From assembly GCA_017792345.1 (NCBI GenBank), contig CP051228.1, positions 2,742,501-2,806,500 on the forward strand: DNA of 64,000 nucleotides, written 5' to 3'. The notes under the pieces were generated by a model that saw only the letters and a list, made by a program, of their open reading frames with translations, searched no databases and had not been told where the DNA came from. This document shows positions 3,804 through 63,961 of this stretch, in pieces. Numbering within the stretch: position 1 is the stretch's first letter; every line of letters begins with the position of its first letter. The translations under genes were made by a program, and so were the position numbers. The DNA is from Mesoflavibacter sp. Its GTDB lineage: Bacteria; Pseudomonadota; Alphaproteobacteria; UBA8366; Aestuariispiraceae.

Positions 3804-3830
3804 CTGAACTGAACTCCGAATGGGACCGTG

Positions 3831-5099
3831 TTAGCGGCCGGCAAAGCCGAGGGCATCGCGCAGGCGGTAATACGAAATGGCGGTGGCGAGTGCCGGGCGC
3901 CGCAGACTGTGAAAAGGGATGGTCGGTGCGTCAACCACCGGGAATCCCGCTTCCCGCCCAATGGTATGATCGGCGGCGGCTTTGCCCAGCGCCGTGGCCA
4001 TGGCGACGCCCCGACCGTTGAACCCGACAATGGCCAGGCAGGCCGGACGCGGCGCGGCAAGTCGCGGCAATTCGTCGATCGTGATCCCGATGCGGCCAGC
4101 CCAGATATGTGACCAGGTCTGTCCCTCGACGGCGGGGAAGAGCCGCGTTATGGCGCGGATCAGGTCTCCGCGAATGCGATTGTCGATCTTGCCGCTCAGC
4201 GGTCCGCGGCCGGTGATTGCCAGACGACCGGCGGCATCCATCCGGATCGCATTCGCCAGCTTTCGCGTATCCGACATGGCGGAGACACCCGGAAGGATCG
4301 ATCGGGCGATATTGGCGGTCAGGGGTTCCGATGCGATCTGCATCGCCTGCACGGTCATAAAGGTCGTCGACCAGCCGGGAATAAGGTTCTCGTGATAAGC
4401 GCCGGTCGCGAGGATCACCTTGTCCGCACGGACCGTGCCCCCGTCGGTATCCAGGCGCCAGCGTCCGCCTTCGCGTGTCATTGCGCGAACGGGGCTGTGC
4501 TGATGCAGTTTCGCCCCGGCCGCTTTTGCGGCGCGCGCGAGACCCCGGCAATAGGACAGGGGCTGAAGCCGCCCGGCACGGCGGTCGATCATCCCGCCGA
4601 TATAGTTCGACGTTCCCAACAGGGTTTCAGTCTGGTTGCGATCCAGCAATTCGACCGGCGCCCCCCGCCGTTCCCACTGGGCTGCCTGTTTCTCGATGGT
4701 CGGCAAAGCAACGGGGCTGTGGGCGGCACGGACCCAGCCGCGGCGATCCGGTTCGCAATCGATGGCGTGCTTTTCGATCAGGTCGAAAACGAGATCGGCG
4801 GTACCCGCCGCCGTCTGTGCGACGACGGCACCCGCGTCGCCGTAGCGCGTCTCCAGGTCGTCCGGACCGTATTTCAGACCCGGAATGACCTGACCGTTAT
4901 TGCGCCCGGAGGCGCCGGCACCGAATGCCTGCGCCTCCAGCAACAGACAATCGGTGCCTGATTCCGCTAAATGCAGCGCGGCGGAAAGGCCGGCATAACC
5001 GCCCCCGATCACCGCGACGGACGTCTGGCATTCGCCCTTATAGACCTCCGTCTCGACAGCCGGTTCGGCGGCCGTGTCCGACCAGACTATGCGCTCCAT
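3831..5099 (-). CDS. FAD-dependent amine/amino acid oxidoreductase (DAO family, PuuB-like)
   Basis: The protein has 422 residues. An ADP-binding Rossmann motif VIGGGYAGLSAALHLAE lies near residues 30-46. It is followed by GAGASGRNNGQVIPG, a stretch typical of the OrdL/PuuB branch of the D-amino-acid-oxidase fold. PuuB oxidises gamma-glutamylputrescine to the aldehyde in Escherichia coli. Here the gene lies 5 bp after hyuB and 27 bp before a gamma-glutamyltransferase, which fits oxidation of a gamma-glutamylated amine, although the substrate is inferred. The C-terminal GFNGRGVAMATALGKAAAD segment closes the FAD site. A sarcosine or glycine oxidase-like role cannot be excluded. Confidence 0.85.
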   Translation of the reverse strand: MERIVWSDTAAEPAVETEVYKGECQTSVAVIGGGYAGLSAALHLAESGTDCLLLEAQAFGAGASGRNNGQVIPGLKYGPDDLETRYGDAGAVVAQTAAGTADLVFDLIEKHAIDCEPDRRGWVRAAHSPVALPTIEKQAAQWERRGAPVELLDRNQTETLLGTSNYIGGMIDRRAGRLQPLSYCRGLARAAKAAGAKLHQHSPVRAMTREGGRWRLDTDGGTVRADKVILATGAYHENLIPGWSTTFMTVQAMQIASEPLTANIARSILPGVSAMSDTRKLANAIRMDAAGRLAITGRGPLSGKIDNRIRGDLIRAITRLFPAVEGQTWSHIWAGRIGITIDELPRLAAPRPACLAIVGFNGRGVAMATALGKAAADHTIGREAGFPVVDAPTIPFHSLRRPALATAISYYRLRDALGFAGR

Positions 5100-5104
5100 T
5101 CCGC

Positions 5105-6778
5105 CTACTCGGCCGCTTCGGGAAGGGCATAGATCCGGGCCGCTTCGCCCGGCGACAGAAGGCCTTCGGCAATATCGTTCTCGATGTCGCTGCGCGCACG
5201 TTCCCTCGGGTCGCCATAGCCCCCGCCACCGCCGCAGAAGACCTCGACAATGTCGCCCTTCTTGAGATTCACAAGGTTCTTGGAGCCGACGATCACTTCC
5301 TCACCGCCCCGCAGAACGCGGCAGTATCCCTTCGTGCCGTCACTGCCGCCGAACAGGCCGGAGGGGGCATATTTGTGATGGTCGGAATAGATCGCGAAGG
5401 TCGCGCCGTCCTTCAGGATTTCATAGCTGCGCAGGAAGCCGGCCCCGCCGCGATGGCGGCCGTGACCGAAGGAATCCATGACCATGCTATAGGCCTTGAC
5501 CCGGAAGAAGCTATATCCCGTATCCAGGGATTCCACCGGCGTGTTGGCACAATTGGACAGCTGGTTGTCAATTGCATCGCACCCGTCCTGATCGACGCTG
5601 CCGCCGAATCCGCCGCCATAGGGTTCGATATGAACGGCAAAACCGTTATCGTCCTTGTGGGCCAGGCAGGCAATCGTGGTGCAGTCGAAGCCCATGGCCG
5701 TCACCTTTTCCGGTGCCGCCTTGGACAGGGCCTTCATGATCGCGTCATAGGCGCGATAGGCGGGGATCATGCGGGCGCGCACCGGGGCGGGCGGTTTCGG
5801 GTTCAGGATCGAACCATAGGGTGCCCGGAAGGTGATCGGCCGGCGAAGGCCGGAATTGAACGGCACATCGGAACCCGTCAACGCAACCTTCACCGCCGAC
5901 AGCGCGACCGATTGGGTTGAGGCGAAGGGGCAGTTGATGTTGCAGTTGACCTGCGGGTCGGTGCCTTCGAAATCAACGTCGATGCTGTCGCCCTTGACCG
6001 TGACCTTGGCCCGGATCCAGACCGGGTCGTCCCCATCGAATGCCGCATCGTCGATGCAGTCCTCTCCGGTATAGACGCCGTCCGGCAGATCTTCGATCGC
6101 AGCGCGGACGCGGCGTTCGGTGTAGTTGAGCATCTCGTCCATGGTTTCCAGAACTGCGTCGACGCCATGCTTCGTGCACAATTCCTTCAGACGGCCGCCG
6201 CCCATGAAATTGGCCGCGAACTGGGCATTGAAATCGCCGATCGTCTGGGTCGGAACGCGGATGTTCGAGGCGATAAGCCGTTCGAAGTTACCGCCGTTCC
6301 AGTCGCGATCCATATTGTATTTCGACGGCGGGATCAGGATCCCTTCCTGATAGACGTCGGATGCGTTCGGGTTGAGGCCGGCACTGCCGCCACCGAGGTC
6401 AAGATGGTGCGCAACGCTGGCCCCGAAACCGATCAATTTGCCTTCGAAGAACACCGGGTTGAAGATGAAGACGTCCTGCAGGTGCTGACCACCGTGATAC
6501 GGGTGGTTGTTGATCAGGAAATCCCCTTCCTGCAGCGTCTCGGGCGGGAAGAGTTCCAGACAGGGCTGCACGATGGCGTCAATCGTGCCGAGCTGCATCG
6601 GGATCAGTTCCGCCTGGGCGATGGTTCGACCTTTTGCATCCAGCAGAGCGGCGGAGCCGTCCCGTGCCTCGCGCAGAATCGTCGAATAGGCGGAGCGGAT
6701 CAGTTTTACACCCATCTCGCGGGCGGCCGCCTGGACGCCCTGGCTGATGACGGCGTAGTCGAGCGCGCTGATCTTCAT
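5105..6778 (-). CDS. hyuB: Hydantoinase B/oxoprolinase family subunit
   Basis: This 557-residue protein matches the HyuB / N-methylhydantoinase B family. The landmarks are the N-terminal REARDGSAALLDAKGR stretch, NNHPYHGGQHLQDVFI at about residues 90-105, HHLDLGGGSAG, and the glycine-rich C-terminal GGGGGYGDPRER. HyuB pairs with HyuA in ATP-dependent opening of cyclic amides such as 5-oxoproline or hydantoins. The start overlaps the end of the upstream context closely: there are 3 bp between the hyuA stop and this ATG, with an AGAGGA ribosome site 9 bp away inside hyuA. Translational coupling and a HyuAB complex are therefore likely. The exact ring substrate is unknown. Confidence 0.92.
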   Translation of the reverse strand: MKISALDYAVISQGVQAAAREMGVKLIRSAYSTILREARDGSAALLDAKGRTIAQAELIPMQLGTIDAIVQPCLELFPPETLQEGDFLINNHPYHGGQHLQDVFIFNPVFFEGKLIGFGASVAHHLDLGGGSAGLNPNASDVYQEGILIPPSKYNMDRDWNGGNFERLIASNIRVPTQTIGDFNAQFAANFMGGGRLKELCTKHGVDAVLETMDEMLNYTERRVRAAIEDLPDGVYTGEDCIDDAAFDGDDPVWIRAKVTVKGDSIDVDFEGTDPQVNCNINCPFASTQSVALSAVKVALTGSDVPFNSGLRRPITFRAPYGSILNPKPPAPVRARMIPAYRAYDAIMKALSKAAPEKVTAMGFDCTTIACLAHKDDNGFAVHIEPYGGGFGGSVDQDGCDAIDNQLSNCANTPVESLDTGYSFFRVKAYSMVMDSFGHGRHRGGAGFLRSYEILKDGATFAIYSDHHKYAPSGLFGGSDGTKGYCRVLRGGEEVIVGSKNLVNLKKGDIVEVFCGGGGGYGDPRERARSDIENDIAEGLLSPGEAARIYALPEAAE

Positions 6779-6781
6779 GAC

Positions 6782-8794
6782 TTAGATCCTCTTCATAATC
6801 AGATTGTTCGCATGATCGAGCTCGGCGCGCCAACCGACCGGGATGAACGTGGTCGCGGTACTGCCCTCGATGATGGTCGGGATGTCGATGGTGCCGGCAT
6901 TCTTCACCGCCTCGCTGGCGATATGCTGGCAGGTGATCCAGTCGCCGCCTTCGAAAACGGGATGATCCGCCGGCGTGCGTGCGACGTCGCCGGTCGAATG
7001 CATGACGGGAACTTCCTCGACGGGATATGTCGCCCCGACGCGGAAGGACACGATTTCCACCGGCCGGTTCGATCCGATGCCGTGATAGAACATCCGGTAG
7101 TGAGCCTGCTCGAAACCGTCACGGAAATCGTCGACGGTCAGCGCGTTCAGGCGGTCGCCCGGCAGTTCGACTCCCAGTTCGAAGGCCTGGCCCACGAAGC
7201 GCATCTCGGCCGTATAGGTGAATTCAAGCCGGTCGCCGGAAAGTCCCATCTTCTGGAATTCCTCGACCAGTTCGGCTTTCAATTCTTCCAGGATCGCGGC
7301 GCCGTCCTTTGGCCCGGCATCCATCGGCATCTGTTGCGTCCGGCTGGCATATTTGACGAAATCGGAGGCGAGCAGACCGAAGGCCGAGATCACTCCGGCA
7401 TTCGGCGGAATGCAGATCGTGGACACACCCAGCTCGTCGGCGATGGATGCCGCATGCAGCGGCCCTCCGCCTCCGAACGGCACCAGGACGTAATCGCGCG
7501 GATCGCGGCCGCGCTCCGTCGATACCAGCTGAATCGCTCGCACGATGTTCGAGTTGACCAGTTTGACGACGCTTTCCGCAGCTTCCTCGATCGATATGCC
7601 GAAATGTTCGGCGATGCCGGTGAAGGCGTTTCTCGCCGCCTCGACATCGATCTTCATCCGTCCGCCGAGGAAGGCCTCCGGGCGGACCGCGCCGCGCACG
7701 ACCTGGGCATCGGTGACGGTCGGCAGTTCGCCGCCATGGCCATAGCAGGCGGGGCCGGGATCGGCGCCGGCGCTCTGCGGTCCGACCCGCAACATGCCGC
7801 CGTCATCGATCCAGGCGATGGAGCCGCCACCGCCGCCGACGGTCACGATATCCAGAACCGGCGTCATGACCGGCAGGCCGCCGATTTCCGTTTCCATGGT
7901 CAGGGCCGGTTGGCCGTCATTGACCAGACAGACATCCGTCGAGGTGCCGCCCATATCGAAGGTGATCAGGTTCTTGAAATTCGACTTCTCGACTTGACGC
8001 GCCGCGCCGACGACGCCGGCGGCAGGACCAGAGAACAAGGCAGTAATGGCGCTGCGCCGCATGGCAACCGCCGGAAGCCGGCCGCCATTGGACTGCATCA
8101 CCGTCAGATGCCCCTTGAAGTCGGCTTCTGCGAGGCTCTTTTCGAACCGGCCCAGATAGCGGTCGATGACCGGCTGCACATAGGCTGACAGGCTGGTGGT
8201 CGACGCCCGCTCGTATTCACGGAAGATGCGGACGATCTCACTGGAACGGGTGACCAGGAGGTCGGGCAGGGCCGCCTCGATCATTTCCACCAGCCGGTTC
8301 TCGTGGACCGGGTTGGCGTATCCGTTCAATAGGCAGACCGCAACGGCGCCGTAATTACCTTCCTTGAGTTTCGGGATCAAGACCTCGCGGACGGCCTTCT
8401 CGTCTAGCGGTGTCGCGATGCTGCCATCGGCCAGCACCCGTTCGGACGCTTCGAAGCAGTCACGGCGGGCCATCACGGGCTCCGGCTTGCGATACTTGAT
8501 GTCATAGATGCTGCGGCGGTCGTGACGCTGCAGGAATAGGATGTCCCGGAAGCCTTCGGTCGTCACGAACGCGACCTTGGCGCCTTTGCGCTCTAGCACG
8601 GCGTTGGTCGCGACAGTGGAACCGTGGGCCAGATCGGTGACGGATTCCAGAGAAAGCCCCGCGGCCTTGATTCCGTTCAGGGCGCCGATATCCGGGCTGT
8701 GCGGCGTGCTGGGGACCTTTGTGATGGTGATCCCGCCATTTCCAACGGCCACTAGGTCCGTAAAGGTTCCACCGACTTCAACACCTACGCGCAT
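6782..8794 (-). CDS. hyuA: Hydantoinase A/oxoprolinase family subunit
   Basis: The product is 670 residues with an N-terminal acetate/sugar-kinase-type ATP site, VGVEVGGTFTDLV, immediately after the start, a HGSTVATNAVLERKGA segment, and a central GGTSTDVCLV phosphate-binding motif. It belongs to the HyuA/oxoprolinase A family, which uses ATP to open cyclic amides together with HyuB. I place the start at the ATG at 8794 because AAAGGA lies 8 bp upstream. An in-frame ATG at 8815 would add seven residues without a good ribosome site. The gene follows dctM by 53 bp, which links uptake with ring opening. Hydantoin, N-methylhydantoin, 5-oxoproline or acetone-carboxylase-like substrates all remain possible. 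Confidence 0.92.
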   Translation of the reverse strand: MRVGVEVGGTFTDLVAVGNGGITITKVPSTPHSPDIGALNGIKAAGLSLESVTDLAHGSTVATNAVLERKGAKVAFVTTEGFRDILFLQRHDRRSIYDIKYRKPEPVMARRDCFEASERVLADGSIATPLDEKAVREVLIPKLKEGNYGAVAVCLLNGYANPVHENRLVEMIEAALPDLLVTRSSEIVRIFREYERASTTSLSAYVQPVIDRYLGRFEKSLAEADFKGHLTVMQSNGGRLPAVAMRRSAITALFSGPAAGVVGAARQVEKSNFKNLITFDMGGTSTDVCLVNDGQPALTMETEIGGLPVMTPVLDIVTVGGGGGSIAWIDDGGMLRVGPQSAGADPGPACYGHGGELPTVTDAQVVRGAVRPEAFLGGRMKIDVEAARNAFTGIAEHFGISIEEAAESVVKLVNSNIVRAIQLVSTERGRDPRDYVLVPFGGGGPLHAASIADELGVSTICIPPNAGVISAFGLLASDFVKYASRTQQMPMDAGPKDGAAILEELKAELVEEFQKMGLSGDRLEFTYTAEMRFVGQAFELGVELPGDRLNALTVDDFRDGFEQAHYRMFYHGIGSNRPVEIVSFRVGATYPVEEVPVMHSTGDVARTPADHPVFEGGDWITCQHIASEAVKNAGTIDIPTIIEGSTATTFIPVGWRAELDHANNLIMKRI

Positions 8795-8847
8795 TGACAA
8801 CATCCTTTCATACATTCGTGCACTTCGTTCCCAAGAGACATCGCCGT

Positions 8848-52253: not shown

Positions 52254-53502
52254 CGACCGGCGCGGTCAGCGCCATCCGGCGCAGTTTGCGCTCCAGTTCC
52301 AGATTCAGCGAGGCGATGTCGAAATCCGCTTCTACCTTCAGGCGGGCCGCCTGACTGTAGCGGCGCCATTGCTCCGGCGAGGCCTCGGCAAGATCGATGA
52401 GCGTGCGGGTGATGCCCTCCCGGTCCCGTTCCTTGACCAGCAAGCCGGTCTTGCCGTGTTCGACCAATTCCGGAATGCCGCTGTGCCAGGTTGAAAGCAC
52501 GATCATGCCGCAGGCCATGGCTTCCATGATGGTGACCGGGATCCCTTCCTGATCGCCGCTTTCGGTCGTCACGCTGGGCGCCAGCAGGATGTCGGCCTCA
52601 CGCATTGCGCGGGCGATGTAATCCTGTTTGCGCCATCCCAGGAAGGCGACTCGCTCCCCCAGACCCAGAGCGTCCTTTGTCTGCTCCAGCCGCTCGCGCA
52701 ATGGGCCGTCGCCGATGATGGTCAAGCGGGCGTCGTGGCCGGCCTCAATCAGGCCGGCCATCGCATGCAGCGCATCGGCAACGCCTTTCTTTTCCACCAT
52801 GCGCCCGACCACAAGCAGTTGCAGGGGCTGGGATTTGTCCCGATTTCGGGCCCGGTAGACATAGCGGGCGGTGTCGACCCCCATATGGTGGACATCCAAG
52901 CGGTTCTCCGGGCACCCCAGTTCGCCTAGCTTGCGGCGCCAATGCTCGGAAATCGGCAAGAAGCATTCCCCCCGCCGGAACAGATCCCGGTAGGCGCCGG
53001 GTGTCGCCTTCGGATAGGCGCTGACATCCACGCCGTGCAGGACTGTCGCCAGCGGTCCGGAAATCATCCCGGCTTGGCGCAGGGAATCCGCGAATTCCCC
53101 GACCGGTCCGAAATGCGCCAGGATCGCGTCGAACCGCGGCCGATCCTTCAACATTGCCCCCCAGTAGAGCAACCGCCCGGACAGCGCGTCGCGGCCGTAC
53201 CGCGAGACGTTCAAGGCGGGGATGAGACGCCGGGGGTTCCGCAATGCCAGGCCGCATAGCCGGAACGGCGCCTTGCCGAGGCGCAGCAGCCGGTTTCTCG
53301 GCATATGCGGATATCGGGACCTGGAAATCAGGGCATAGCGCTGAAAATCCGGGTGTACCAAGCCGTCGTTGCGCGGCCGGTCGGAAAACACCGTGACGTC
53401 ATGGCCTCGATCCAACAGCCCGGTGACCTGATTCAGAACGAAAGTCTCGCTCAGGGCCGGGAATTCTGTGGTGAAAACGGCGATCTTCATTCTCGGTATC
53501 AT
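52249..53502 (-). CDS. Glycosyltransferase family 4 (WcaL/AmsK-like)
   Basis: The enzyme is 417 residues. It opens KIAVFTTEFPALSETFVLNQV, the signature opening of the colanic acid WcaL / amylovoran AmsK group. The acceptor half includes ILAHFGPVGEFADSLR, and the donor half has VVGRMVEKKGVADALHAM and TTESGDQEGIPVTIMEAMACG. WcaL-type enzymes are thought to add a late galactose to the repeat unit. The ATG at 53502 overlaps the pyruvyl transferase stop by four bases, with GGAG eight bases upstream. Confidence 0.9.
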   Translation of the reverse strand: MIPRMKIAVFTTEFPALSETFVLNQVTGLLDRGHDVTVFSDRPRNDGLVHPDFQRYALISRSRYPHMPRNRLLRLGKAPFRLCGLALRNPRRLIPALNVSRYGRDALSGRLLYWGAMLKDRPRFDAILAHFGPVGEFADSLRQAGMISGPLATVLHGVDVSAYPKATPGAYRDLFRRGECFLPISEHWRRKLGELGCPENRLDVHHMGVDTARYVYRARNRDKSQPLQLLVVGRMVEKKGVADALHAMAGLIEAGHDARLTIIGDGPLRERLEQTKDALGLGERVAFLGWRKQDYIARAMREADILLAPSVTTESGDQEGIPVTIMEAMACGMIVLSTWHSGIPELVEHGKTGLLVKERDREGITRTLIDLAEASPEQWRRYSQAARLKVEADFDIASLNLELERKLRRMALTAPVA

Positions 53503-54734
53503 CGGTTTCGCTCCAGTCCGATCGCAACGGCCTGCCCGGCGGCATAGGCGCTCTCCCGCAGGTCCGGCAGAATCTCCCGGATGCGCTCGCGATAGGCGGC
53601 GCGGTTGTCCAGGATCATGCGGCACGTACGGCAGAGGGCGGCGCCGGAAATGGAGGTCAGGTCCTGCACGATCTCCTCCATGCCCAGCCGCTTGAACAGC
53701 TCGTTGGTCTTGAATTCATAGGCGATGGGCAGAACCGGTACGCCCGCACACAGCGCCAGGATGGCACCATGCATACGGGTCGACACGTACATGTCGTAGC
53801 CGGCCAAATGGTCCATCAATTGCTGCGGCGAGCGGAAGCTGCGGTCGACCTGCACCCGGTCGGTGTTTTCCCGGCCAATTTCGGCGACGACCCGATCCGC
53901 GACCGCGGAATCGTCGGTCCAATAGGATCCGGCACCCTGGCAGGTCGACACAAAGGTCACCTCCGCGCCGGACCCTTCCGTCAGGTGGCGGACCAGCTTG
54001 GCCACGGCCGCGACATAGTTTTGCATCGCACGGTCCGCATCGGACCCGCCATGGGGCCAATCGCGTACGGAAATGCCGATGCGCAACTTGTTACTGGCCT
54101 CGGAGACCGGTGTCGGGCGACCTGCCAACGCGAAGGCGGCATCGGCGCAGATCGCGATCCGGTCCCCCCGAACCCCCAGGTCCAGCAGATGCTCCACCGA
54201 ACGGGAATCCCGCACTAACACGGCATGTGCGCCGGCAAATATCGCGCGCAGCAGGATACGGTCGCGCGGGAAGGGGCCCAGACTCTGCGTGAACAGGACA
54301 TAGGGGCGGCGCATCAGGCGGGCGGCCAGCAGTTCGAGCAGCTTGGGTCGAATCCGGTAATGTGGAACCAGATAGGTGCCGCCGGCGGATACGATCAGAT
54401 CGCTTTCCGCATAGCCGTCCAGAACGGCGCGCACCCTGGGCGGCACCAAACGCCTCGCCAGATTGCCCTGTGGTGTCCGCCACAACGCCGCCGCCGTCAT
54501 CAGGCGCACCAATCCTGGCCGCCGCGTGTCGTCGGGAAGCGACTCCAGGGCGCCGTAGAGCGTTTCTTCAATGCGGTAATCGCAATAGGCCGCGCGACTG
54601 TCTTCGGCTTGCTGATCCCGCAGCTCGACCGTGATGTCGTTGCCGAAGACGTCGCGCAGGATCGCGTCCGTGCCGGCCATGATGGCCGCGTCGCCGGCAT
54701 TCAGCAGCGCGGTATTGGTTACGGTAATCTTCAA
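53499..54734 (-). CDS. Polysaccharide pyruvyl transferase family protein (WcaK-like)
   Basis: This 411-residue protein of family PF04230 starts ITVTNTALLNAGDAAIMAGTD and contains SAGGTYLVPHYRIRPK and STRMHGAILALCAGVPVLPI, the typical H-containing C-terminal motif. Members transfer pyruvate from phosphoenolpyruvate to a sugar as a ketal. WcaK is the colanic acid relative. Its presence predicts that the polymer is pyruvylated, adding negative charge. It overlaps its neighbours by four bases at each end. Confidence 0.92.
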   Translation of the reverse strand: MKITVTNTALLNAGDAAIMAGTDAILRDVFGNDITVELRDQQAEDSRAAYCDYRIEETLYGALESLPDDTRRPGLVRLMTAAALWRTPQGNLARRLVPPRVRAVLDGYAESDLIVSAGGTYLVPHYRIRPKLLELLAARLMRRPYVLFTQSLGPFPRDRILLRAIFAGAHAVLVRDSRSVEHLLDLGVRGDRIAICADAAFALAGRPTPVSEASNKLRIGISVRDWPHGGSDADRAMQNYVAAVAKLVRHLTEGSGAEVTFVSTCQGAGSYWTDDSAVADRVVAEIGRENTDRVQVDRSFRSPQQLMDHLAGYDMYVSTRMHGAILALCAGVPVLPIAYEFKTNELFKRLGMEEIVQDLTSISGAALCRTCRMILDNRAAYRERIREILPDLRESAYAAGQAVAIGLERNR

Positions 54735-56266
54735 TGATTGACCCTCATCTGCATCATGCGCTTCCGGAATGTCAGCGTTTCGAACAGCATGCGGCGGCCG
54801 CTGGGGGCGATCAGATAGATCGTCAACGCCGTGGCAACCGCGATACCAGTGTCGTAGATCAGCGATATCAGAGCGCTGGGTTCGGTGAGAACGACGTCAC
54901 TGCCAATGAAGTAGATCAGACCCGCGCCTGCGATACCCGCCGTGACGGGCAGGCAGAGAATTCTGAAAAAGGTCCGGCTGCCGACAGGTCCCTTCCGGCC
55001 GACATACCACAACAGGAATGGGGCGCGGACAAGGGCACCGCCCAGCGCATAGGCCATGGCGACGAAGATCGGGCCGAAGGGTAATGAAATCGCCAATGCG
55101 ACCATGTTGACGCAGACATTCACCGCATTGGCGCGCAGCATTTCGGGCGTCCGGTCCTGGCTCATGTACAGCCAGCTCAACGTGAATGTCAGCGGAGCGT
55201 AGAGCAGAGAGATGCCGAGCCAGGAAAGGATCGGTGCCGCCCGGGACCATTGTTCGCCTAGAACGACGCCGGTCACGGACTCTGCGGACATGAAGATCAG
55301 TGCCGCGACCGGCGCGGTCAGCATGCCGATGCGCTGCGCCACCGCGAGATAGGCGGAGCGGTAACGGTCCGGCTCGTCGACGAGCCGGCTCAGCATCGGC
55401 AGTGCGACGGAGGCGAGCGGGGTACAGATGTTCACCACCGGCATCATCGTCAGCTTCTGCGAGCGTTCGAACAGGCCGAGCGGACCCGGCCCCCATAGCC
55501 AGCCGATCGCCATTTTGTCGACGCTGCCGGCAAGCCGTCCCAGGACCATCGCGGCCGTGGCGTTGGTGCCGAATCGGATCTGGTCCCGGATCAGCGACAG
55601 GCGCCCCGGCCGACCCGGCAGCCATCCGCTGGTGAGGAACGCGCCGACGAGCATGGCAAGGCCCCAAGTCAACCGCTGCAGGACCAGGGACCAGATACCG
55701 AAATCCGACGCGGCGGCGGCCACGGCCGCCCCCATGGCGATAATCTCCGAGCCGGTCTGGACCACGGAAAGCGTCTTGAACCGCATCTGGCGGCGGAGCA
55801 GTGCCAGATGCTGGGCACTGAATCCAGTAAAGATCAGTGTCAGGGCAGCGGTCGCCGCGACACCGGTCAGCAACGGCTCGTCGTAAAACCACGCCAGGCC
55901 CGGCGCCAGGGCGGCAAACACCACCGCAACCGCAGCACCCAGTCCGGCATTAAGCCAGAACAGGGTGCTGAGCTCCCGATGGGTGACTTCGGCACGCTGC
56001 ACCGTCGCCCCGGACAGCCCCATATCCTTGAACAGTTCCAGGACAGCCAGGAAGGCAAGTACAATGGCGAACAGCCCGAAATCCTCCGGCGTCAGCAAGC
56101 GCGCCAACAGGATGATCGATCCGATCTGAACCGCGACCTTGATGCTCTGGGCCACCAGGGTCACGACGCCGCCGGAAATCGAGCGCGATGCCAGATCGCG
56201 TTTCAAGTGGCCGACCCCGAGTGGATCCTGGCCGCCGGAATCCCGACGATGTTTATCGGGCGCCAT
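54731..56266 (-). CDS. wzx: Wzx-type lipid-linked oligosaccharide flippase (WzxC-like)
   Basis: This multi-helix protein has about 511 residues and 12-14 membrane segments. It starts with a basic cytoplasmic tail and SRSISGGVVTLVAQSIKVAVQ, then LARLLTPEDFGLFAIVLAF, a hallmark of the WzxC/MOP family. It moves the undecaprenyl-linked repeat unit across the inner membrane. The ATG at 56266 overlaps the fcl stop by 14 bp; an upstream ATG at 56296 is possible. It overlaps the pyruvyl transferase start by four bases. Confidence 0.92.
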   Translation of the reverse strand: MAPDKHRRDSGGQDPLGVGHLKRDLASRSISGGVVTLVAQSIKVAVQIGSIILLARLLTPEDFGLFAIVLAFLAVLELFKDMGLSGATVQRAEVTHRELSTLFWLNAGLGAAVAVVFAALAPGLAWFYDEPLLTGVAATAALTLIFTGFSAQHLALLRRQMRFKTLSVVQTGSEIIAMGAAVAAAASDFGIWSLVLQRLTWGLAMLVGAFLTSGWLPGRPGRLSLIRDQIRFGTNATAAMVLGRLAGSVDKMAIGWLWGPGPLGLFERSQKLTMMPVVNICTPLASVALPMLSRLVDEPDRYRSAYLAVAQRIGMLTAPVAALIFMSAESVTGVVLGEQWSRAAPILSWLGISLLYAPLTFTLSWLYMSQDRTPEMLRANAVNVCVNMVALAISLPFGPIFVAMAYALGGALVRAPFLLWYVGRKGPVGSRTFFRILCLPVTAGIAGAGLIYFIGSDVVLTEPSALISLIYDTGIAVATALTIYLIAPSGRRMLFETLTFRKRMMQMRVNH

Positions 56267-57224
56267 AGGCTTCCGCTTCGGCTGGGATGCGGTCACAGAA
56301 ATCGCGATAGGCGATTTCCAATCCGGTCTTCAGCGGCGTCGCGGCCTGCCAGCCGAGGGCGCTCAGTCGGCTGACGTCCAGCAGCTTCCGGGGCGTCCCG
56401 TCCGGTTTCGTCAGATCGTGCTCGAACCGCCCGCCGAAACCGACGACGGTGGCAATGCTCCGGGCCAATTCGGCGATGGTCATGTCCTCGCCGACACCGA
56501 TATTCACCGGATTTGCCTGGTCGTAATGTTTCATCAGAAAGACCAGGGCGTCGGCGCAATCGTCGACGAACAGGAATTCGCGTTTCGGCTTTCCGGAGCC
56601 CCAAAGGACCATGCGGTCCTCACCCCGGATTTTGGCCTCATGCGCTTTTCGGATCAGGGCCGCGACGACATGGCTGTTCAACGGGTGATAGTTGTCCCCG
56701 GGGCCGTAGAGGTTGGTCGGCATTGCCGAGATGAAGTTACTGCCGTGCTGTTGGCGATAGGCCTGACACTGAAGGATGCCGGCGATCTTCGCGACGGCAT
56801 ACCATTGATTGGTCGGTTCCAACGGCCCGGTCATCAGGGCGGATTCCTGGATCGGCTGTTCCGCCAGACGCGGATAGATGCAGGAAGAGCCCAGGAACAC
56901 CAGTTTCTCGACCCCGGCGCGATGGCTGGCATCGATGACGTTCAGCTGAATCCGCAAGTTGTCGCACAGGAAATCCGCCGGCATCTCATTGTTGGCATGG
57001 ATGCCGCCGACCTTGGCTGCGGCGCAGAAGACCAGGTCCGGCTTGTGCCGTTGGACCCACTTCGTTGTCGCATCGCTGTCGCGCAGATCGACTTCACTGC
57101 GCGAGACCTTCAGGACCTCGCAATCCTCCTCACGAAGGCGACGCGACAGCGCTGCTCCTACCATGCCACGGTGACCGGCCACCCAGACCTTCTTCCCGGC
57201 CAGTTTCGTTTGCGTTCCGATCAT
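56253..57224 (-). CDS. fcl: GDP-L-fucose synthase
   Basis: The protein has 323 residues, matching the usual 320. The NADP motif [10 protein letters not shown] follows the start, then LGSSCIYP and the YAVAK tyrosine-lysine pair. It carries out epimerisation and reduction of GDP-4-keto-6-deoxymannose to GDP-L-fucose. I prefer the ATG at 57224; the ATG at 57242 adds six residues. Either way the 5' end overlaps the 3' end of gmd by 95-113 bp in another frame, which is unusual (see findings). Confidence 0.92.
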
Positions 57225-58284
57225 GGTTCCGTCTCGTCTCATTGTTGCCGTTCAGGGCCGCGCGGTCCGCGTCGACCATTTCTGATACCAGTTGCGGGAA
57301 AGTGGTTTCATGCCGCCAACCCATCTCGTCCTGCGCCTTCGACGGGTCGCCGAGCAGCAGGTCGACCTCGGCTGGTCGGAAGTATTTGGCGGAGACCTCG
57401 ATCAGGACTTTTCCGGTCTCCCGGCAGCGCCCCTGCTCCTCGACACCGGTCCCGTGCCATTCGATCTCACGACCGATCCTGGCGAAGGCCAGTTCGACGA
57501 ATTCCCGCACGGAATGGGTTTCGCCGGTGGCGAGGACGTAGTCCTCCGGCGTGTCCTGCTGCAGGATCTGCCACATGCCGCGGACATAGTCGCGGGCATG
57601 TCCCCAATCCCGTCGGGAATCCAGATTGCCGAGATAAAGCCTGTCCTGTAGCCCGGCATCGATGGCGGCGACGGCCCGGGTGATCTTGCGGGTGACGAAA
57701 GTCTCGCCGCGGATTGGGCTTTCATGGTTGAACAGAATGCCGTTCGACGCGTGAATTCCATAGGCCTCCCGGTAGTTCACCGTGATCCAATAGGAATACA
57801 GTTTGGCGGCGGCATAGGGGCTGCGGGGCTGGAACGGGGTCGCCTCCGACTGGGGCGCAGGGGCGTTTCCGTAAAGCTCCGACGTGGACGCCTGGTAGAA
57901 GCGGACCCGGTCGGTCATGTCCAGAATACGGATGGCCTCCAACAGCCGCAGCGTGCCCAAGGCGTCGACATTGCCGGTATATTCCGGCGTCTCGAAACTG
58001 ACCTGAACATGGCTTTGGGCGCCCAGATTGTAGATTTCGTCGGGCTGGACCTGCTGAACCAGACGGATCAGGTTCGTCGGATCGGTCAAATCGCCGTAAT
58101 GCATGTGGAACCGCACCCCCTGCTGGTGCGGGTCGGCGTATAGGTGATCGACCCGTCCGGTATTGAAGGACGAGGAACGGCGTTTGACGCCATGAACTTC
58201 ATACCCCTTTTCCAGGAGCAGTTCCGACAGATAGGTGCCGTCCTGGCCGGTCACCCCGGTGATCAGGGCGCGTTTCGTTGCCAT
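57130..58284 (-). CDS. gmd: GDP-mannose 4,6-dehydratase
   Basis: The enzyme is 384 residues with the NAD motif GVTGQDGTY (9-17), [15 protein letters not shown], the catalytic-region STSELYG and the YAAAK pair. It converts GDP-mannose to GDP-4-keto-6-deoxymannose, the substrate of Fcl. The family core ends near [12 protein letters not shown]. The last 38 or so residues (from [10 protein letters not shown]) are unlike any GMD tail I know and are encoded by DNA shared with fcl. The ATG at 58284 has GGAG nine bases upstream. It is the first gene of the minus-strand block gmd-fcl-wzx-pyruvyl transferase-glycosyltransferase. Confidence 0.93.
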
Positions 58285-58592
58285 GCGATGATTCTCCGCT
58301 GTGGTGCTTCGGACATGATGGGCGGGTCGGGCTCGACCGCCGCGTCCCGGCTTCGGCCTAATCAAGGCAATGCCTGGCTAAATCGCCAGTGTTCAAACTG
58401 TGACCCATAGGGGTTTCGCCGTGACCTTCAGCGCCAATTTGCACGGTTGGAACGGTTGCTGGTCTAGGCACGCCGTTGGGCATCGCGGCGCATGCAAAGT
58501 CACAGCTTGGTCACGCGTATCGCTGCGGCCGGATCACTACATTCCAGCCGATCTTACGAAACCGAGGCATTTTGAAATGGAGCGAGATCATC
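58285..58592. promoter_or_regulatory. 308-bp divergent region with repeated GTCAC half-sites
   Basis: No gene is supported between gmd and the PP-loop gene. The region holds two GTCAC elements on the plus strand, at 58499-58503 and 58510-58514, exactly 11 bp apart (GTCACAGCTTGGTCAC). Two more lie on the minus strand, as GTGAC at 58400-58404 and 58421-58425, 21 bp apart. OmpR-family regulators commonly bind direct repeats spaced by one or two helical turns. Promoters for both directions are expected here. Confidence 0.5.
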
Positions 58593-59846
58593 GTGCAGAT
58601 AACCAATGTGACGACATTGGAGACCGAGGAGTGGTCCGAATTGGCCGCGCATATCAAGCCGGTTTCCGAGGCCGAACCGATGGCGCTTTACTTTCGGTTC
58701 ACGGGTCTGGATACCCCGATCCGATCCGCAGTCGAACCCTTCGTGCTGGCCTGCTTGCAGATCTCCATGCTTGAGCAGGAGACGATCGAATCGGCCGGTG
58801 ACCTGGATCCGGTTCTGGCCGACGGCCTGGCGCGTGGACAGGAAGTCCAAACGGAGTGGTTCGACTATCTGACAACAACGCCAATCGTTCGTGTGTCTGC
58901 GGAAGGCAAGGGCGCCGAGGCTGGTGCCGCTGCGCCGGCAGGACCCGATGCGGTAGCCTGCTGTTTCTCCGGCGGGGTCGATTCCTGGTACTCGCTGATC
59001 AAGAACCGTGAGAGCGTCACCCATCTTCTGCTCGTCCGCGGCTTCGATATCGATCTTAAGAACCATCGCCTCTGGGACGAAACACGGAACCACGCCCGCC
59101 AGGTGGCCAAGGCGCTGGGGCTGCGGCTGATCACCTGCGAAACCAACATTCGCAGTATCGCCGACCCACGACACCGTCGATGGGGGCGCGCTTTCGACGG
59201 CGATTTCTGGGGACAGTGCCTGCACGGTGCCGCGCTGGCTGCGGTCGGCCATGCCGCATCGGACACGATCGGCACCCTGATCGTGCCTGCGACACATACC
59301 ATCGAACAGTTCAAGCCCTGGGGCTCTTCGCCGGCCCTGGACAGTCATTGGTCCGGATCGCGTCTGACCATTGTGCATGACGGCTGCGAATTGGATCGGG
59401 TCCGGAAGGTTTTCGAAATCGCCGATCATGCCGTGGCAATTCAGAATCTGCGGGTCTGTCACAACAACACGACGGAGCTGAATTGCTGCCGGTGTGAGAA
59501 ATGCATTCGCACAATGATCGCCTTGAAGCTCTGCGGTGCGCTGCACCGGGCGACTACGTTTCCCGATCATCACGCCCTGGCCAAACTGCACCGGTTGGAC
59601 GTTCCCTCCCATCTCCTCCATCACTACGAAGCGTTGCTTTCGGCGGCGGAGGAATTCGGCAATCGGGAAATGGTCCAAGTTCTTGAGGTCATTCTGGGGC
59701 GCCGGTTTTCGGTCGAACGCGCCGTCGCGACCGGCATCCGCGCCCTGCGCCACCCGGGGCAGCGTCGCGATCCAGTTCAGAAAGCGCCAGTGGTTCGGTC
59801 CGCGGAGAACACCTCGACGAAAAGGCAGGATGCCGGTGCCGACTGA
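58593..59846 (+). CDS. PP-loop (adenine nucleotide alpha-hydrolase-like) ATPase with C-terminal cysteine cluster
   Basis: The protein has 417 residues from a GTG at 58593 (GGAG about ten bases upstream; no good ATG in frame). An N-terminal domain of about 120 residues has no recognisable motif. A PP-loop CCFSGGVDSWYSL follows, with SGGVDS at 126-131, the pyrophosphate-binding loop of enzymes that adenylate a carboxyl, amide or urea oxygen. The C-terminal region has CH at 289-290 and NCCRCEKCIRTM at 297-308, likely a metal or zinc knuckle. It overlaps the ATP-grasp gene by 17 bp. It should activate a carboxylate or amide in polymer or precursor tailoring; the substrate is unknown. Confidence 0.8.
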   Translation: MQITNVTTLETEEWSELAAHIKPVSEAEPMALYFRFTGLDTPIRSAVEPFVLACLQISMLEQETIESAGDLDPVLADGLARGQEVQTEWFDYLTTTPIVRVSAEGKGAEAGAAAPAGPDAVACCFSGGVDSWYSLIKNRESVTHLLLVRGFDIDLKNHRLWDETRNHARQVAKALGLRLITCETNIRSIADPRHRRWGRAFDGDFWGQCLHGAALAAVGHAASDTIGTLIVPATHTIEQFKPWGSSPALDSHWSGSRLTIVHDGCELDRVRKVFEIADHAVAIQNLRVCHNNTTELNCCRCEKCIRTMIALKLCGALHRATTFPDHHALAKLHRLDVPSHLLHHYEALLSAAEEFGNREMVQVLEVILGRRFSVERAVATGIRALRHPGQRRDPVQKAPVVRSAENTSTKRQDAGAD

Positions 59847-61005
59847 CACCGTTATCGCCCGCCCGGGACAATCGGATGGCACCGGATCGGGATCGAGAGG
59901 CGGTTGGAAGGCGTTCCGCCGATTGCCCGCCTGGTATCGTGGGGCGCGTTGGGCAATTCAGCGCGTCGCTTGGCGGATGCGTGGCCTGGAATACGCCCTG
60001 CTGGCGGTCGAAAGGGAACTGTCCTCCACCGTTCAGGTAGCCTGGTGGCGGAAGCCGGGGCTGTGGCGTGACGGGTTCCTGAGCGAGTCCTACGTGCTTT
60101 ACGATCTGGCGCGAAATCCGCGTGCGCACTATCTCAGCGACCTCGACCGGTCTGTCTCGGTCCGCCGGATAAACCGCGATTACGGTGTCGTGCTGGACGA
60201 CAAGCTGGTCTTCGAAAATGTCATGGGCCATGGCGGTATTCCGCGGCCGGTGCTGTTCGGCTGCCTGAAGGATGGGCTGGTCGTACCGGTCAGGCCGGGC
60301 CCTCCCGCAGCGGCGTTCCAAGACCTCCTGCATAGCCAGCGGGCTTTCGTGCTGAAGCCTGCGCGCGGCGGCGGCGGACGGGACATATCCGTCGTCAGCG
60401 TCGCCGAAGGCGGCACCGTGCTGATGAATGGACGGCCGACGGATACGGCGGAGGTCATTCAGTCCACTGCGGGGTTGGGGATTGTTCTGGTCTACGAGGC
60501 GGTCCGTCAGCATCGCGCTTTGGATGCCCTGTTTCCGGACGCCGTCAACACGGTGCGTGTACTGACTATGGTGGACGGCAATGGAGAACCTTTTGTTGCC
60601 CGCGCAGTGCTGCGTATCGGGACCACGGCGTCGCAACCGACGGACAATTGGATCCGCGGCGGTCTGTGTGCGGCCGTCGACCTGCGGGACGGCACGCTGG
60701 GCCGGGCCGTTCAATTCCCGGCCAATGACGACGAGCTGCGATGGCACGACGTGCATCCTGATACCGGCGCGGCGATCTCGGGCACCCGAGTGCCGGATTG
60801 GGATGCTGTGCTGGAAACGGCTCTGCGGGCCGCGAGGGCGATGCCCTCAACCCCATATGTCGGGTGGGATCTGGCAATCTCTACGGATGGGCCGGTGGTG
60901 ATCGAAGGGAACAGTTATTCCGGAGTCAATTTGTTTCAGGTCCACGAACCCTTGCTGAACGATCGGAAGATTCGCCGGTTCTTCGAACGGCACGGTGTGA
61001 TCTGA
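59830..61005 (+). CDS. Sugar-transfer-associated ATP-grasp ligase family protein
   Basis: The product is 391 residues. An N-terminal basic helical region (about 25-75) precedes the ATP-grasp fold. FVLKPARGGGGRDIS near residue 176 is the ATP-binding lysine and glycine-rich loop, FPDAVNTVRVLTM holds the central strand, and VVIEGNSYSG (357-364) supplies the magnesium-binding glutamate and asparagine. The layout matches PF14397, found in polysaccharide loci. ATP-grasp enzymes form amide or similar bonds via acyl-phosphates. The start at 59830 overlaps the PP-loop gene. I infer that the two make an amide-type substituent on the exopolysaccharide. Confidence 0.85.
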   Translation: MPVPTDTVIARPGQSDGTGSGSRGGWKAFRRLPAWYRGARWAIQRVAWRMRGLEYALLAVERELSSTVQVAWWRKPGLWRDGFLSESYVLYDLARNPRAHYLSDLDRSVSVRRINRDYGVVLDDKLVFENVMGHGGIPRPVLFGCLKDGLVVPVRPGPPAAAFQDLLHSQRAFVLKPARGGGGRDISVVSVAEGGTVLMNGRPTDTAEVIQSTAGLGIVLVYEAVRQHRALDALFPDAVNTVRVLTMVDGNGEPFVARAVLRIGTTASQPTDNWIRGGLCAAVDLRDGTLGRAVQFPANDDELRWHDVHPDTGAAISGTRVPDWDAVLETALRAARAMPSTPYVGWDLAISTDGPVVIEGNSYSGVNLFQVHEPLLNDRKIRRFFERHGVI

Positions 61006-61329
61006 TCTGTCCGAAAAAGAACACTGCGTGCGGAACCATTTCTCGAACCTCCCGTCAAATGGGTAGGACGATGCGCGGGTAACATTCCCTCTCTCCCCCC
61101 TATCGCCCGCGCAGACGTCCGCTGGACCGCATCCCCCATTCGAGTGCTCCCCCAAGCACTCACCCTCCAAACTCGGCGCCTTCCTTCGGGGAGGCGCCAA
61201 TCTTGTTTCTTTTCAAGTGGTTCCGGGAGCCGACTGGAACCATTGCGGGTCACAACCGTCTATTGGGAAAGGCCGCATTCGCAACCGATTGCGGTGTCTT
61301 GGTCACTCAGTGCGAAGGTGGAGGCGGAA
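61006..61329 (+). terminator. 324-bp intergenic region with two tandem hairpins ending the PP-loop/ATP-grasp operon
   Basis: There is no gene here. A first perfect 7-bp hairpin spans 61142-61161 (GAGTGCT, CCCCCA loop, AGCACTC). A second, with ten pairs and a stable TTCG tetraloop, spans 61175-61198 (GGCGCCTTCC, GGGAGGCGCC) and is followed by a T-rich stretch to 61214. The second is a good rho-independent terminator. GTCAC elements also occur at 61249-61253 and 61302-61306, upstream of the next gene. Confidence 0.75.
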
Positions 61330-61864: not shown

Positions 61865-63961
61865 ATGTCCTCCTTGAACGAATCCGAGTCCTGCCACTTG
61901 ATACAGGAGCGTCCGCGACGGTCCCACTGGGTTGTCGCGGGGCGCCGGCTGGTCTGGCTGAGGCGTCTGTATCTGTCGCTTGTCGCCGTCAGCGCGATCA
62001 GCGGAATCGGAATCGTGGTGTCCTTGCTGCGTCCTGACAGCGTCACCGCCTATGTCGCGGCGACGGCCCTTGTTGTGCTGTTCGCCCTGCTGTTCACCTG
62101 GATCGCCAGCAATTTCTGGATGACGGTGTTTGGCCTCGGTCGGCTGATTTCGGACCGAAGGGCAGGCGCGAAAACGAAGACGGGTGTGGAGGCGGCCGGG
62201 CGGCCGGCGATCGATACACTCGGCCCGCCGCGAACCGCCATCGTCATGCCGATCTACAACGAGGATCCGGCGCGCGTTGCGGCCGGAATCCAGGCGACGC
62301 TGGAATCGGTCGAGGAGGCCGGCGCGCTTGGCGCTTTTGATTTCTACATGCTCAGCGACACCAAGGATGCGGATATCGCAATCCGGGAAGAAATCGCCTG
62401 GATGGAGCTGATCTCGCAACCGTCCTTCCGCAATCGCGTATTCTATCGACGCCGGGAATCGCCGACCGAGCGGAAGAGCGGCAATATCAAGGAATTCCTC
62501 GAGAAATGGGGCCATCGGTACGAGTACATGGTCGTACTCGATGCCGACAGCGTGATGACCGGTGGCGCGCTCGTGGAATTGGTGCGCCGAATGGATGCCG
62601 ATTCCCAATGCGGCCTGATTCAGACCTGGCCCCAGATCACGAATGGCCGAACCTTGTTCTCGCGCATGCACCAGTTCGCGTCGCGGACATATGGCCGGAT
62701 TCTTGCCTATGGCATGGCGACCTTGATCAACCCCCACGGCAATTATTGGGGCCACAACTCGATCATCCGCGTTTCGGCTTTTATGCAGAGCTGCGGATTG
62801 CCGCATCTGCCCGGACCGGCCCCGATCGGCGGCGAGATCTTGAGCCATGATTTTGTCGAGGCCGCCTTTCTGGTGCGCCGGGGTTGGAAGGTCGAGCTGG
62901 CGCCGGATATCGACGGCAGTTACGAGGAAATGCCGCCGAACATCGTGCAGCATGTCGCGCGGGATCAGCGGTGGTGTCAGGGCAATCTGCAGCATGCCTG
63001 GCTGCTCGCCGCCCGTGATATCCACCCGGCCTCCCGAATCAATTTCCTGACCGGTATTCTGGCCTATGCGACCAGTCCGATTTGGTTCCTGTTCGTGGCC
63101 GTGGCCGCGGTCATTTCCTTCTCGGATCACTCGCTGTTTTCGCCCGCAACCGTGCTGATGCGCCAGTCCGAAGCAGGCTGGACCGTCGCGGCCAGCACGC
63201 TCGAGAGTTGGCTTGTGGCGGGCCTGTTGGGTGCAACCCTGATCTTTATCCTGTCGCCAAAGCTGATGGGGATCGTTGCTGCGCTGGCGGCGCGCCGAGA
63301 ACCGGTGCTTCGCCTGCTGCGGAATTTCGTAACGGAAGCAGTGCTGTCCGTGCTCGTCGCACCGACCGTGATGCTGCGGCACAGCATATTCATCGCCCGT
63401 CTGTTGTGCGGACACGGCGTGAACTGGAATCCGCAACAGCGTGACGAGTCCCGGCTGTCCTGGGGCGAAGCCACAAAGGCATTCTATGCGCAGACCGTGC
63501 TGGCGGCCGTGATCATCGTTACCGGCCTCATCTGGCCCACCGGCGTCCATCTGTGGCTGTCGCCGATTCTGGCCGGACTTCTTGTCTCCATACCGCTGGC
63601 CGTCTGGACCGGTCGTGTACCGGGGGGCGACCGGGGGGCCTTGATGCTGGATGACCGCAACGGCATTCCGCCGGTGATGCGCAGGACAAATGCGTTGAGC
63701 GAGACTTTCGCCGGGAAAATGCCGCCCGGCGACCCTGTGGTTCGCATCCTCGACGATCCGAAGCTTGCTTCGTTGCATCTCTTCATGCTGGCGACAGAGC
63801 CTGACGGCGATTGCTGCCGCAGCGTCGAAGGAGGCGTCATGGCCAAGGTGCATGACGGCCGCGAGCCCCTGTCCGATGCGGAGCGGGCCTCGATCCTATC
63901 CAATTCCGTCGCGCTGCGCCGGCTTCAGGCCGAACGGGCGGTGCGGTCCGGAAGGTCCTGA
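61865..63961 (+). CDS. opgH: Membrane glucan glucosyltransferase
   Basis: This GT2-family polymerase has 698 residues. Two N-terminal helices are followed by the catalytic domain: VMPIYNEDPARVAAGI, the DxD in VVLDADSVMTGG, and RDQRWCQGNLQHAWL with the QRW product-binding motif. Several C-terminal helices then form the channel. OpgH uses UDP-glucose to make the linear beta-glucan backbone of periplasmic glucans. It is shorter than the 847-residue Escherichia coli protein, mainly at both ends, as is common in alphaproteobacteria. The OpgG/D partner is at 30654, not adjacent. GGAGTAGGGTGAG precedes the ATG. Confidence 0.94.
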   Translation: MSSLNESESCHLIQERPRRSHWVVAGRRLVWLRRLYLSLVAVSAISGIGIVVSLLRPDSVTAYVAATALVVLFALLFTWIASNFWMTVFGLGRLISDRRAGAKTKTGVEAAGRPAIDTLGPPRTAIVMPIYNEDPARVAAGIQATLESVEEAGALGAFDFYMLSDTKDADIAIREEIAWMELISQPSFRNRVFYRRRESPTERKSGNIKEFLEKWGHRYEYMVVLDADSVMTGGALVELVRRMDADSQCGLIQTWPQITNGRTLFSRMHQFASRTYGRILAYGMATLINPHGNYWGHNSIIRVSAFMQSCGLPHLPGPAPIGGEILSHDFVEAAFLVRRGWKVELAPDIDGSYEEMPPNIVQHVARDQRWCQGNLQHAWLLAARDIHPASRINFLTGILAYATSPIWFLFVAVAAVISFSDHSLFSPATVLMRQSEAGWTVAASTLESWLVAGLLGATLIFILSPKLMGIVAALAARREPVLRLLRNFVTEAVLSVLVAPTVMLRHSIFIARLLCGHGVNWNPQQRDESRLSWGEATKAFYAQTVLAAVIIVTGLIWPTGVHLWLSPILAGLLVSIPLAVWTGRVPGGDRGALMLDDRNGIPPVMRRTNALSETFAGKMPPGDPVVRILDDPKLASLHLFMLATEPDGDCCRSVEGGVMAKVHDGREPLSDAERASILSNSVALRRLQAERAVRSGRS

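Follow-up and report, generated by a model that had tools for sequence, protein, structure and literature searches.

What do two ATP-dependent enzymes in overlapping reading frames do beside a bacterial polysaccharide locus? The question is raised by a stretch of 64,000 nucleotides of contig CP051228.1 (assembly GCA_017792345.1, labelled Mesoflavibacter sp. and placed by GTDB in the Alphaproteobacteria), which as a whole is called the window in the following. Near its end stand gene 1, encoding a PP-loop ATPase (protein P0001), and gene 2, encoding an ATP-grasp ligase (P0002). A preliminary description, made from the letters alone, had proposed that one enzyme activates or releases an amino or amide donor and that the other ligates it to a sugar. 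Our analysis indicates that gene 1 is, by its predicted fold, a QueC-like PP-loop ATP-pyrophosphatase of an unnamed, widespread clade. QueC is known from tRNA modification. For the two genes we tentatively propose, with a confidence slightly short of even, that gene 1 tailors a surface polysaccharide by amidation of glycan carboxylates, with gene 2 as an accessory ligase. Genes were called by a simple longest-frame rule, and statements cited by PMC number rest on excerpts of those papers unless the main text is named.

Motifs and predicted fold of gene 1

Gene 1 occupies positions 58593..59846 on the plus strand and encodes 417 residues, with a GTG start at 58593 and GGAG 10 nucleotides upstream. 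In the translation the PP-loop SGGVDS is read at residues 126-131 (58968..58985, plus strand) and the cluster NCCRCEKC at residues 297-304, both as described earlier. The cluster had been called C-terminal; it is real, but 113 residues follow it, and it does not lie at the very end of the protein. The most informative point, missed in that description, is the relationship to QueC. Namely, C289 completes the cluster to C289-x8-C298-x2-C301-x2-C304 (59457..59504, plus strand), that is, to a C-x8-CxxCxxC motif of the QueC type, the zinc motif of QueC being defined as C(x)8CxxCxxC (PMC13329287).

Two alignments bear on the conservation of these elements. The first, A1, has 13 rows, 12 of which are relatives from whole-protein searches, and is free of motif selection. 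Invariant in it are the SGG and D of the PP-loop, G150, P247, R269, K272 and the four cysteines C289, C298, C301 and C304. The second, A4, has 71 rows, 70 of them relatives (near-duplicate sequences were omitted, as were some frames that had a long N-terminal run or were additional copies). Here the zinc cysteines are again invariant (71/71), the first spacing being x9 in 56 rows and x8 in 7; P0001 itself has x8. Also family-conserved in A4 are W89, W206, G212, P242, G244, H246, P247, D250, S254 and H262-D-G264. It should be pointed out that the motif conservation in A4 arises partly by selection, because the peptide patterns of the scan include the PP-loop and zinc motifs. Several of the listed positions fall in the family motif PWGSSPALD (residues 242-250; 59316..59342, plus strand), where the family's H246 is S in the window's gene 1. 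In our reading this motif probably occupies the place of the YPDC substrate motif of QueC, judging by the order of the elements and not by residue alignment.

The AlphaFold2 model of P0001, built with the 71 family rows, has a pLDDT of 91.1 and a pTM of 0.89. Structural alignment with VIA-align gives as best match QatC, of the qatABCD anti-phage defence system (PDB 9y01), with Z 14.6 over 297 residues within the model range 1-377, followed by QueC with Z 12.5 for the core fold (PDB 3bl5) and 12.4, and by Cap9 of the type IV cyclic-oligonucleotide-based antiphage signalling system (PDB 9nto) with Z 11.1 for its QueC-type core; the next match has Z 9.5. Since residues 118-377 span only 260 positions, at least 37 of the 297 residues aligned with QatC lie in the N-terminal part. 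Foldseek also places QatC first (E 1.8e-5), then QueC (E 4.7e-3). The VIA-align listing does not cover every PP-loop family, and absence from its rows is not used as evidence here.

Comparison with related enzymes

By the tests made, gene 1 falls outside QueC, QatC and the WbpG type. The QueC-like character is taken from the fold matches, and the exclusion of the three families from the missing QueC substrate motifs and the membership tests. Gene 1 shares the PP-loop and the zinc motif with QueC, but its 417 residues compare with a median of about 222 there, and the QueC substrate motifs YPDC, VPxRN and YxQxHxxE each occur in 0/71 family rows. P0001 has no match at E 0.1 to the QueC family PF06508, whose gathering score is 22 bits, and the best score among the 71 rows is E 2.6e-4, corresponding to ca 21 bits (converted from pairs of E values and bit scores), so that seemingly not one of the 71 members reaches the Pfam cut-off. 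The 2026 family map describes the PF06508 clusters and, in the excerpts, names only WbpG among surface-sugar enzymes (PMC13329287); no word beginning with 'polysaccharide' occurs in its main text. As gene 1's clade appears to lie below the PF06508 cut-off, it would escape such a survey.

Gene 1 as the canonical QueC of this genome was considered and rejected on the motifs. The genome itself has two PF06508 matches, both partial (positions 5-61 of 210) and located within long frames; one exceeds the cut-off, with E 2.0e-5.

QatC and P0001 both have SGGxDS and a four-cysteine zinc site, and a long part before the QueC core and helices after it may be common to them as well. However, the zinc variant of QatC, C(x)19CGxCxxRR (PMC13329287), is not present in P0001, with its spacing of x8 (x9 in most relatives). 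The NCBIfam model of QatC does not match P0001 at E 0.1, and only 3/71 family rows match it weakly at E 0.01. A sequence search of the PDB with P0001 gave no match, and with the A4 profile only marginal ones, QatC among them (E 0.7). As to qatA, qatB and qatD, a PADLOC scan of the two genes gave none, and the neighbours scanned with Pfam are polysaccharide genes.

The resemblance to QatC and Cap9 raises the alternative that gene 1 modifies a protein, joining a carboxylic acid to the amine at its N-terminus; the target might be, for instance, a component of the polysaccharide machinery. Recent work has shown that proteins are substrates of QueC-fold enzymes in phage defence. In QueC, ATP activates a carboxylate that is attacked by NH3; in Cap9 the attack comes from a protein amine, and action on a protein has been proposed for QatC too (PMC13279940). 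That QatC is the best structural match, with the alignment reaching into the N-terminal part, is consistent with this alternative. Cap9, in turn, differs in having no N- and C-terminal extensions (PMC13279940). We nevertheless consider protein modification rather improbable: the zinc spacing of QatC is not used, a PADLOC scan of both proteins at E 0.1 gave no match, and no defence family is found among the 25 commonest of the 117 neighbour families. Separately, gene 1 as a defence gene was rejected, with no PADLOC match and no phage relative in the phage collection searched.

Another option is a role of gene 1 in sulfur transfer or cofactor synthesis, as in LarE, MnmA or TtuA. The sulfur-transferring PP-loop enzymes share the core fold, with Z of about 8 to 9.5, and in NCBIfam at E 0.1 P0001 finds weak matches over the PP-loop, to asparagine synthase and to LarE (the latter with E 0.015). 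These Z values lie below those of the QueC group, however, and such families do not occur among the 25 commonest neighbour families, making this option very unlikely indeed.

Finally, gene 1 could make an amidine, like the N-acetyl sugar amidotransferases (NASAT; WbpG, WbuX; PDB 8WEX), or a uronamide, like WbpS. The former are PP-loop enzymes with a tetra-cysteine zinc site in lipopolysaccharide (LPS) loci (PMC10607449), WbpS makes an amide on a sugar carboxylate in such loci (PMC7468200), and both thus transfer nitrogen there; Asn_synthase proteins are, moreover, neighbours of gene 1's family (7/117, see below). The cysteines are arranged otherwise in P0001, in which the NASAT pattern CxxC-Xn-[GN]xCxxC is not found, and neither of its two NCBIfam matches at E 0.1 is to a NASAT-type model. 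WbpS belongs to the asparagine-synthase family, and P0001 has no such Pfam domain; it has no match to Pfam at all at E 0.1, hence also no glutaminase domain. In addition, no gene of the UDP-glucose-dehydrogenase family over the cut-off, which could form a uronate, lies inside the window, though two nucleotide-sugar-dehydrogenase genes do so elsewhere in the genome. An amidine or uronamide made in this way is accordingly an unlikely product. The amidation of a glycan carboxylate by QueC-like chemistry is the reading pursued below.

Occurrence of the gene 1 family

A scan in which each species was represented by a single genome returned at least 587 pattern matches, of which at least 487 are confirmed relatives of gene 1. 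The best 80 of these, whose neighbourhoods are loci L057-L136, come from many bacterial phyla, and 15 of the 80 loci hold more than one copy. Plasmids contribute 27 records, adding haloarchaea, cyanobacteria, Priestia and Azospirillum, and every one is annotated as 'hypothetical protein'. In the window's own class the family is rare, with 6/385 genomes by protein and 7/385 by profile (including one weak, partial match). Literature searches, covering papers in part, did not find a description of the clade.

Two observations concern the family itself. In a locus of Nitrospirales (L134:9905-17994), four full and three partial family matches stand in a row, with genes for PF14397 and Mur ligases upstream. 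On a Priestia plasmid, a DUF6395 (PF19932) protein (L016:14820-16133) shares its locus with two relatives of gene 1. This family is weakly matched by 7/71 family rows, around the zinc cysteines where the position of the match was given, and on these grounds it may be a sister family of gene 1's clade.

Gene 2 and the pair

We now consider gene 2, which occupies 59830..61005 on the plus strand and encodes 391 residues from an ATG start at 59830. It overlaps gene 1 by 17 bp (59830..59846, plus strand), as had been stated, and gene 1 indeed runs away from gmd. The assignment of gene 2 to the PF14397 type also stands: the match to ATPgrasp_ST has E 6.3e-47 and 160.5 bits against a gathering cut-off of 31.4 bits, and by this score gene 2 is a clear member, a sugar-transfer-associated ATP-grasp ligase. 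Against TIGR02291 (rimK_rel_E_lig) it reaches 67.4 bits, below the NCBIfam cut-off of 314.2 bits. In a four-sequence alignment K125, K176, D347, E359 and N361 (E359-G-N361) are invariant, and we take the two Lys, the Asp and the ExN to be the ATP-grasp residues. The structure predicted from these four rows is a poor model (pLDDT 47) and was not used.

Both are real genes, being kept in the same place in a congener (G379) with 74% identity for gene 1 and 62% for gene 2; the syntenic cluster including the pair has 62-91% identity there. A further genome of the genus, G105, has neither gene. In the window's genome (one contig, 4.9 Mb) each has one match. The window, the congener and the loci L058, L057 and L059 form one clade with support 99. 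L058, from another alphaproteobacterium, has the pair in overlapping frames next to Wzx, with 42% identity for the ligase. L057 keeps the cluster of WcaL, pyruvyl transferase, Wzx, Fcl and Gmd together with gene 1 but without gene 2, and L059 has a gene 1 relative with neither cluster nor ligase.

Co-occurrence of the two families, which had been suggested as a check, is borne out in part. Within 5 kb of a gene 1 relative, and always on the same strand, a carboxylate-amine ligase of one of three kinds (PF14397, RimK, Mur ligase) is found in 9/80 loci, while PF14397 proper within 2 kb is found in only three (L058, L132, L134). Of these, L132 and L134 are distant loci. In L132 the order is ATP-grasp, Mur ligase, gene 1 relative, and in L134 all three are on one strand. 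A RimK-type ATP-grasp gene stands upstream of the relative in L113 (by 47 bp) and L133 (by 22 bp), and Mur ligases lie within 5 kb on the same strand in six loci (L093, L097, L125, L128, L132, L134), as well as near a relative on a Gemmobacter plasmid. Next to gene 1's family, ligases of three families are thus present in some loci and missing from others. The exact pair is rare, namely the window, one congener and one other alphaproteobacterium, and as a general system it does not hold up.

PF14397 is over the cut-off in 63/385 genomes of the class. As a control, 20 regions were chosen from a set of 55 places with other PF14397 genes of the class, besides the window and the congener; one region holds three of these places. 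With our custom profiles, these 20 regions contain no gene 1 relative, Wzx, family 2 or family 4 glycosyltransferase (GT2, GT4) or pyruvyl transferase, although these profiles do detect GT4 and GT2 around Wzx genes (see below); six contain an asparagine-synthase-like gene. The preliminary description had itself held that homologues found apart and away from polysaccharide loci would speak against the pairing, and for the ATP-grasp half this is the situation observed.

These results bear on the alternative that gene 1 alone acts on the glycan and gene 2, though co-transcribed, encodes a ligase that belongs to another pathway. L057 and L059 do without gene 2, the PF14397 control regions are without gene 1 and sugar-coat markers, and of the six class genomes with a clear gene 1 relative four also have PF14397 over its cut-off, yet the two genes are adjacent in just two of them, both from the window's genus. 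On the other hand, the 17-bp overlap, the retention of the pair in the congener and in L058, and the presence of other ligase families beside gene 1's family elsewhere argue for a connection. We regard this alternative as doubtful, though a real possibility.

The best plasmid relatives of gene 2 are haloarchaeal; one adjoins a flippase near an O-antigen ligase gene, and another stands two genes from an asparagine synthase. On a Haloplanus plasmid (L182:7965-17074) PF14397 lies a few genes from a cluster of YcaO, SagB-type dehydrogenase and TOMM leader-binding genes, and on a Halomontanus plasmid (L181:7974-16653) PF14397, aspartoacylase-family and asparagine-synthase-related genes stand in a row, followed by two beta-helix proteins.

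The polysaccharide locus and recurrent neighbours

That a PP-loop ATPase overlaps a PF14397 ligase at a locus with Wzx and glycosyltransferases was correctly recognised. On the minus strand lie gmd (57130..58287; GDP_Man_Dehyd, E 2.9e-154), divergent from gene 1, a Wzx-type flippase (Polysacc_synt_3; 54731..56296) and a PF04230 polysaccharide pyruvyl transferase (53499..54734), the sole match to this family in the genome. The locus also has ManC, an NAD-dependent epimerase, Wza- and Wzc-like proteins, a WcaJ-type transferase, several GT4 enzymes, a WcaL-like glycosyltransferase and a second epimerase, read as Fcl.

The neighbours of the family were counted as 117 immediate same-strand genes, from the 76 loci having one among 94 examined. 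The commonest family is the PF04230 pyruvyl transferase with 20/117, a Pfam count independent of the custom profiles, followed by Glycos_transf_2 (12), Asn_synthase (7), PF14397 (3) and Mur ligase (3); of the three PF14397 matches, that of L113 fits RimK better and is below the PF14397 cut-off. With the custom profiles, a pyruvyl transferase lies within 2 kb in 17/80 loci and within 10 kb in 21/80. In the 43 full-length loci, 11 of 13 pyruvyl-transferase genes are within 2 kb, against 3.5 expected (p 2e-5). The concentration is not significant for GT2 (14/37, 9.7 expected, p 0.08), GT4 (9/35, 9.5 expected), Wzx (1/5, 1.3 expected) or AsnB (4/9, 2.8 expected). The pyruvyl-transferase and GT2 profiles were both seeded from genes near gene 1 relatives, and GT2 is not significantly concentrated.

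On a quick tree of 77 rows, which carries long-branch warnings, adjacency to a pyruvyl transferase (18/77) is scattered and needs 15 changes, and proximity to a ligase (11/77) needs 7. As a further control, 20 regions were chosen from 33 other Wzx places. They have GT4 in 14, GT2 in 9 and pyruvyl transferase in 2 (custom profiles), and none has the gene 1 family, PF14397, Mur ligase or AsnB; with 20 regions only, these zeros are weak controls.

Proposed chemistry

The pyruvyl transferase as the most frequent named neighbour suggests that the QueC-like fold also decorates surface sugars. Gene 1 would bind ATP at SGGVDS and adenylate a carboxylate carried by a sugar or a lipid-linked oligosaccharide, and the acyl group would then be passed to ammonia or an amine to give the amide, with zinc completing the fold as in QueC. 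Gene 2, working through an acyl phosphate, would supply or alter the amine component, which might be an amino acid. This step would be accessory, some relatives of the locus doing without it. What is observed are the motifs, the class of the predicted fold, the family, the locus and its recurring neighbours. We infer the amide on a glycan carboxylate, and the sharing of one decoration by both genes with gene 2 as accessory, from the chemistry of QueC and Cap9, the latter offering carboxylate-amine ligation as a model, together with the precedents for amide and amidine decoration of glycans. These are the uronamides of WbpS (PMC7468200), the amidines of WbpG-type enzymes (PMC10607449) and the Campylobacter amidoligase (PMC11800379). 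The last, Cj1438C, is a capsule ATP-grasp enzyme that joins an amine to a glycan carboxylate; it differs in that its TupA-like ATP-grasp is fused with a glycosyltransferase, and the excerpts of PMC11800379 mention no PP-loop partner. As for the substrate, our guess is a pyruvate ketal, favoured because the pyruvyl transferase is the only carboxylate source identified inside the locus.

A number of observations weigh against this reading. The whole-chain Foldseek superposition on QatC is loose (TM 0.43, rmsd 9.1), and a profile-profile comparison of A4 with four QueC sequences matches only the zinc region, with a probability of 6.6%. The window's pyruvyl transferase lies 3.9 kb from gene 1 and on the opposite strand, and a uronate could instead be made from the two dehydrogenases encoded elsewhere in the genome. 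The presence of pyruvyl transferase in 12/43 full-length gene 1 loci is not significantly above that in generic Wzx loci, 2/20 (Fisher p 0.10), and 36/80 loci have none of the polysaccharide markers used, though only 43/80 loci are at least 18 kb long. The nine loci with ligases are a minority, and in the DNA covered no ATP-grasp gene neighbours the gene 1 relatives of L057 and L059; since these loci lack gene 2, the pair need not act together.

If true, amidation of glycan carboxylates would change the charge and recognition of bacterial coats, and the family, with its at least 487 confirmed relatives, would gain a function open to testing. One can also speculate, with a low probability, that a large unnamed clade of the QueC superfamily performs amide, or even nitrile, chemistry on carboxylates of surface glycans. 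Its main substrate would be pyruvate ketals placed by the neighbouring pyruvyl transferase, and interchangeable ligases (PF14397, RimK, Mur) would attach amino acids or peptides at the activated site. The QueC reaction, known from 7-deazaguanine synthesis and from protein modification in phage defence, would then have one more use.

Surroundings of the pair

The pair had been said to end at its own terminator. A terminator-like hairpin with a 10-bp stem does stand at 61175..61198 (plus strand), ca 170 bp 3' of gene 2; a terminator of its own is only plausible, however, because the scan found 3 such sites against 2.9 expected in shuffles. No RNA or tRNA genes were found in the window. In L057, a PF14907 uncharacterised nucleotidyltransferase (L057:7413-9089) lies between gmd and the gene 1 relative, where the window is geneless. 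On the other side of the pair, positions 61865-63961 of the window encode a large GT2-type protein, whose homologue in L057 (39% identity) adjoins an MdoG gene; a periplasmic-glucan synthase may thus border the pair. At the other end of the window, positions 2178-8815 hold genes for gamma-glutamyltranspeptidase and hydantoinase B; beyond these, our reading of the translations suggests frames resembling transporters and ornithine cyclodeaminase. We read this region as a probable catabolic island beside the polysaccharide locus.

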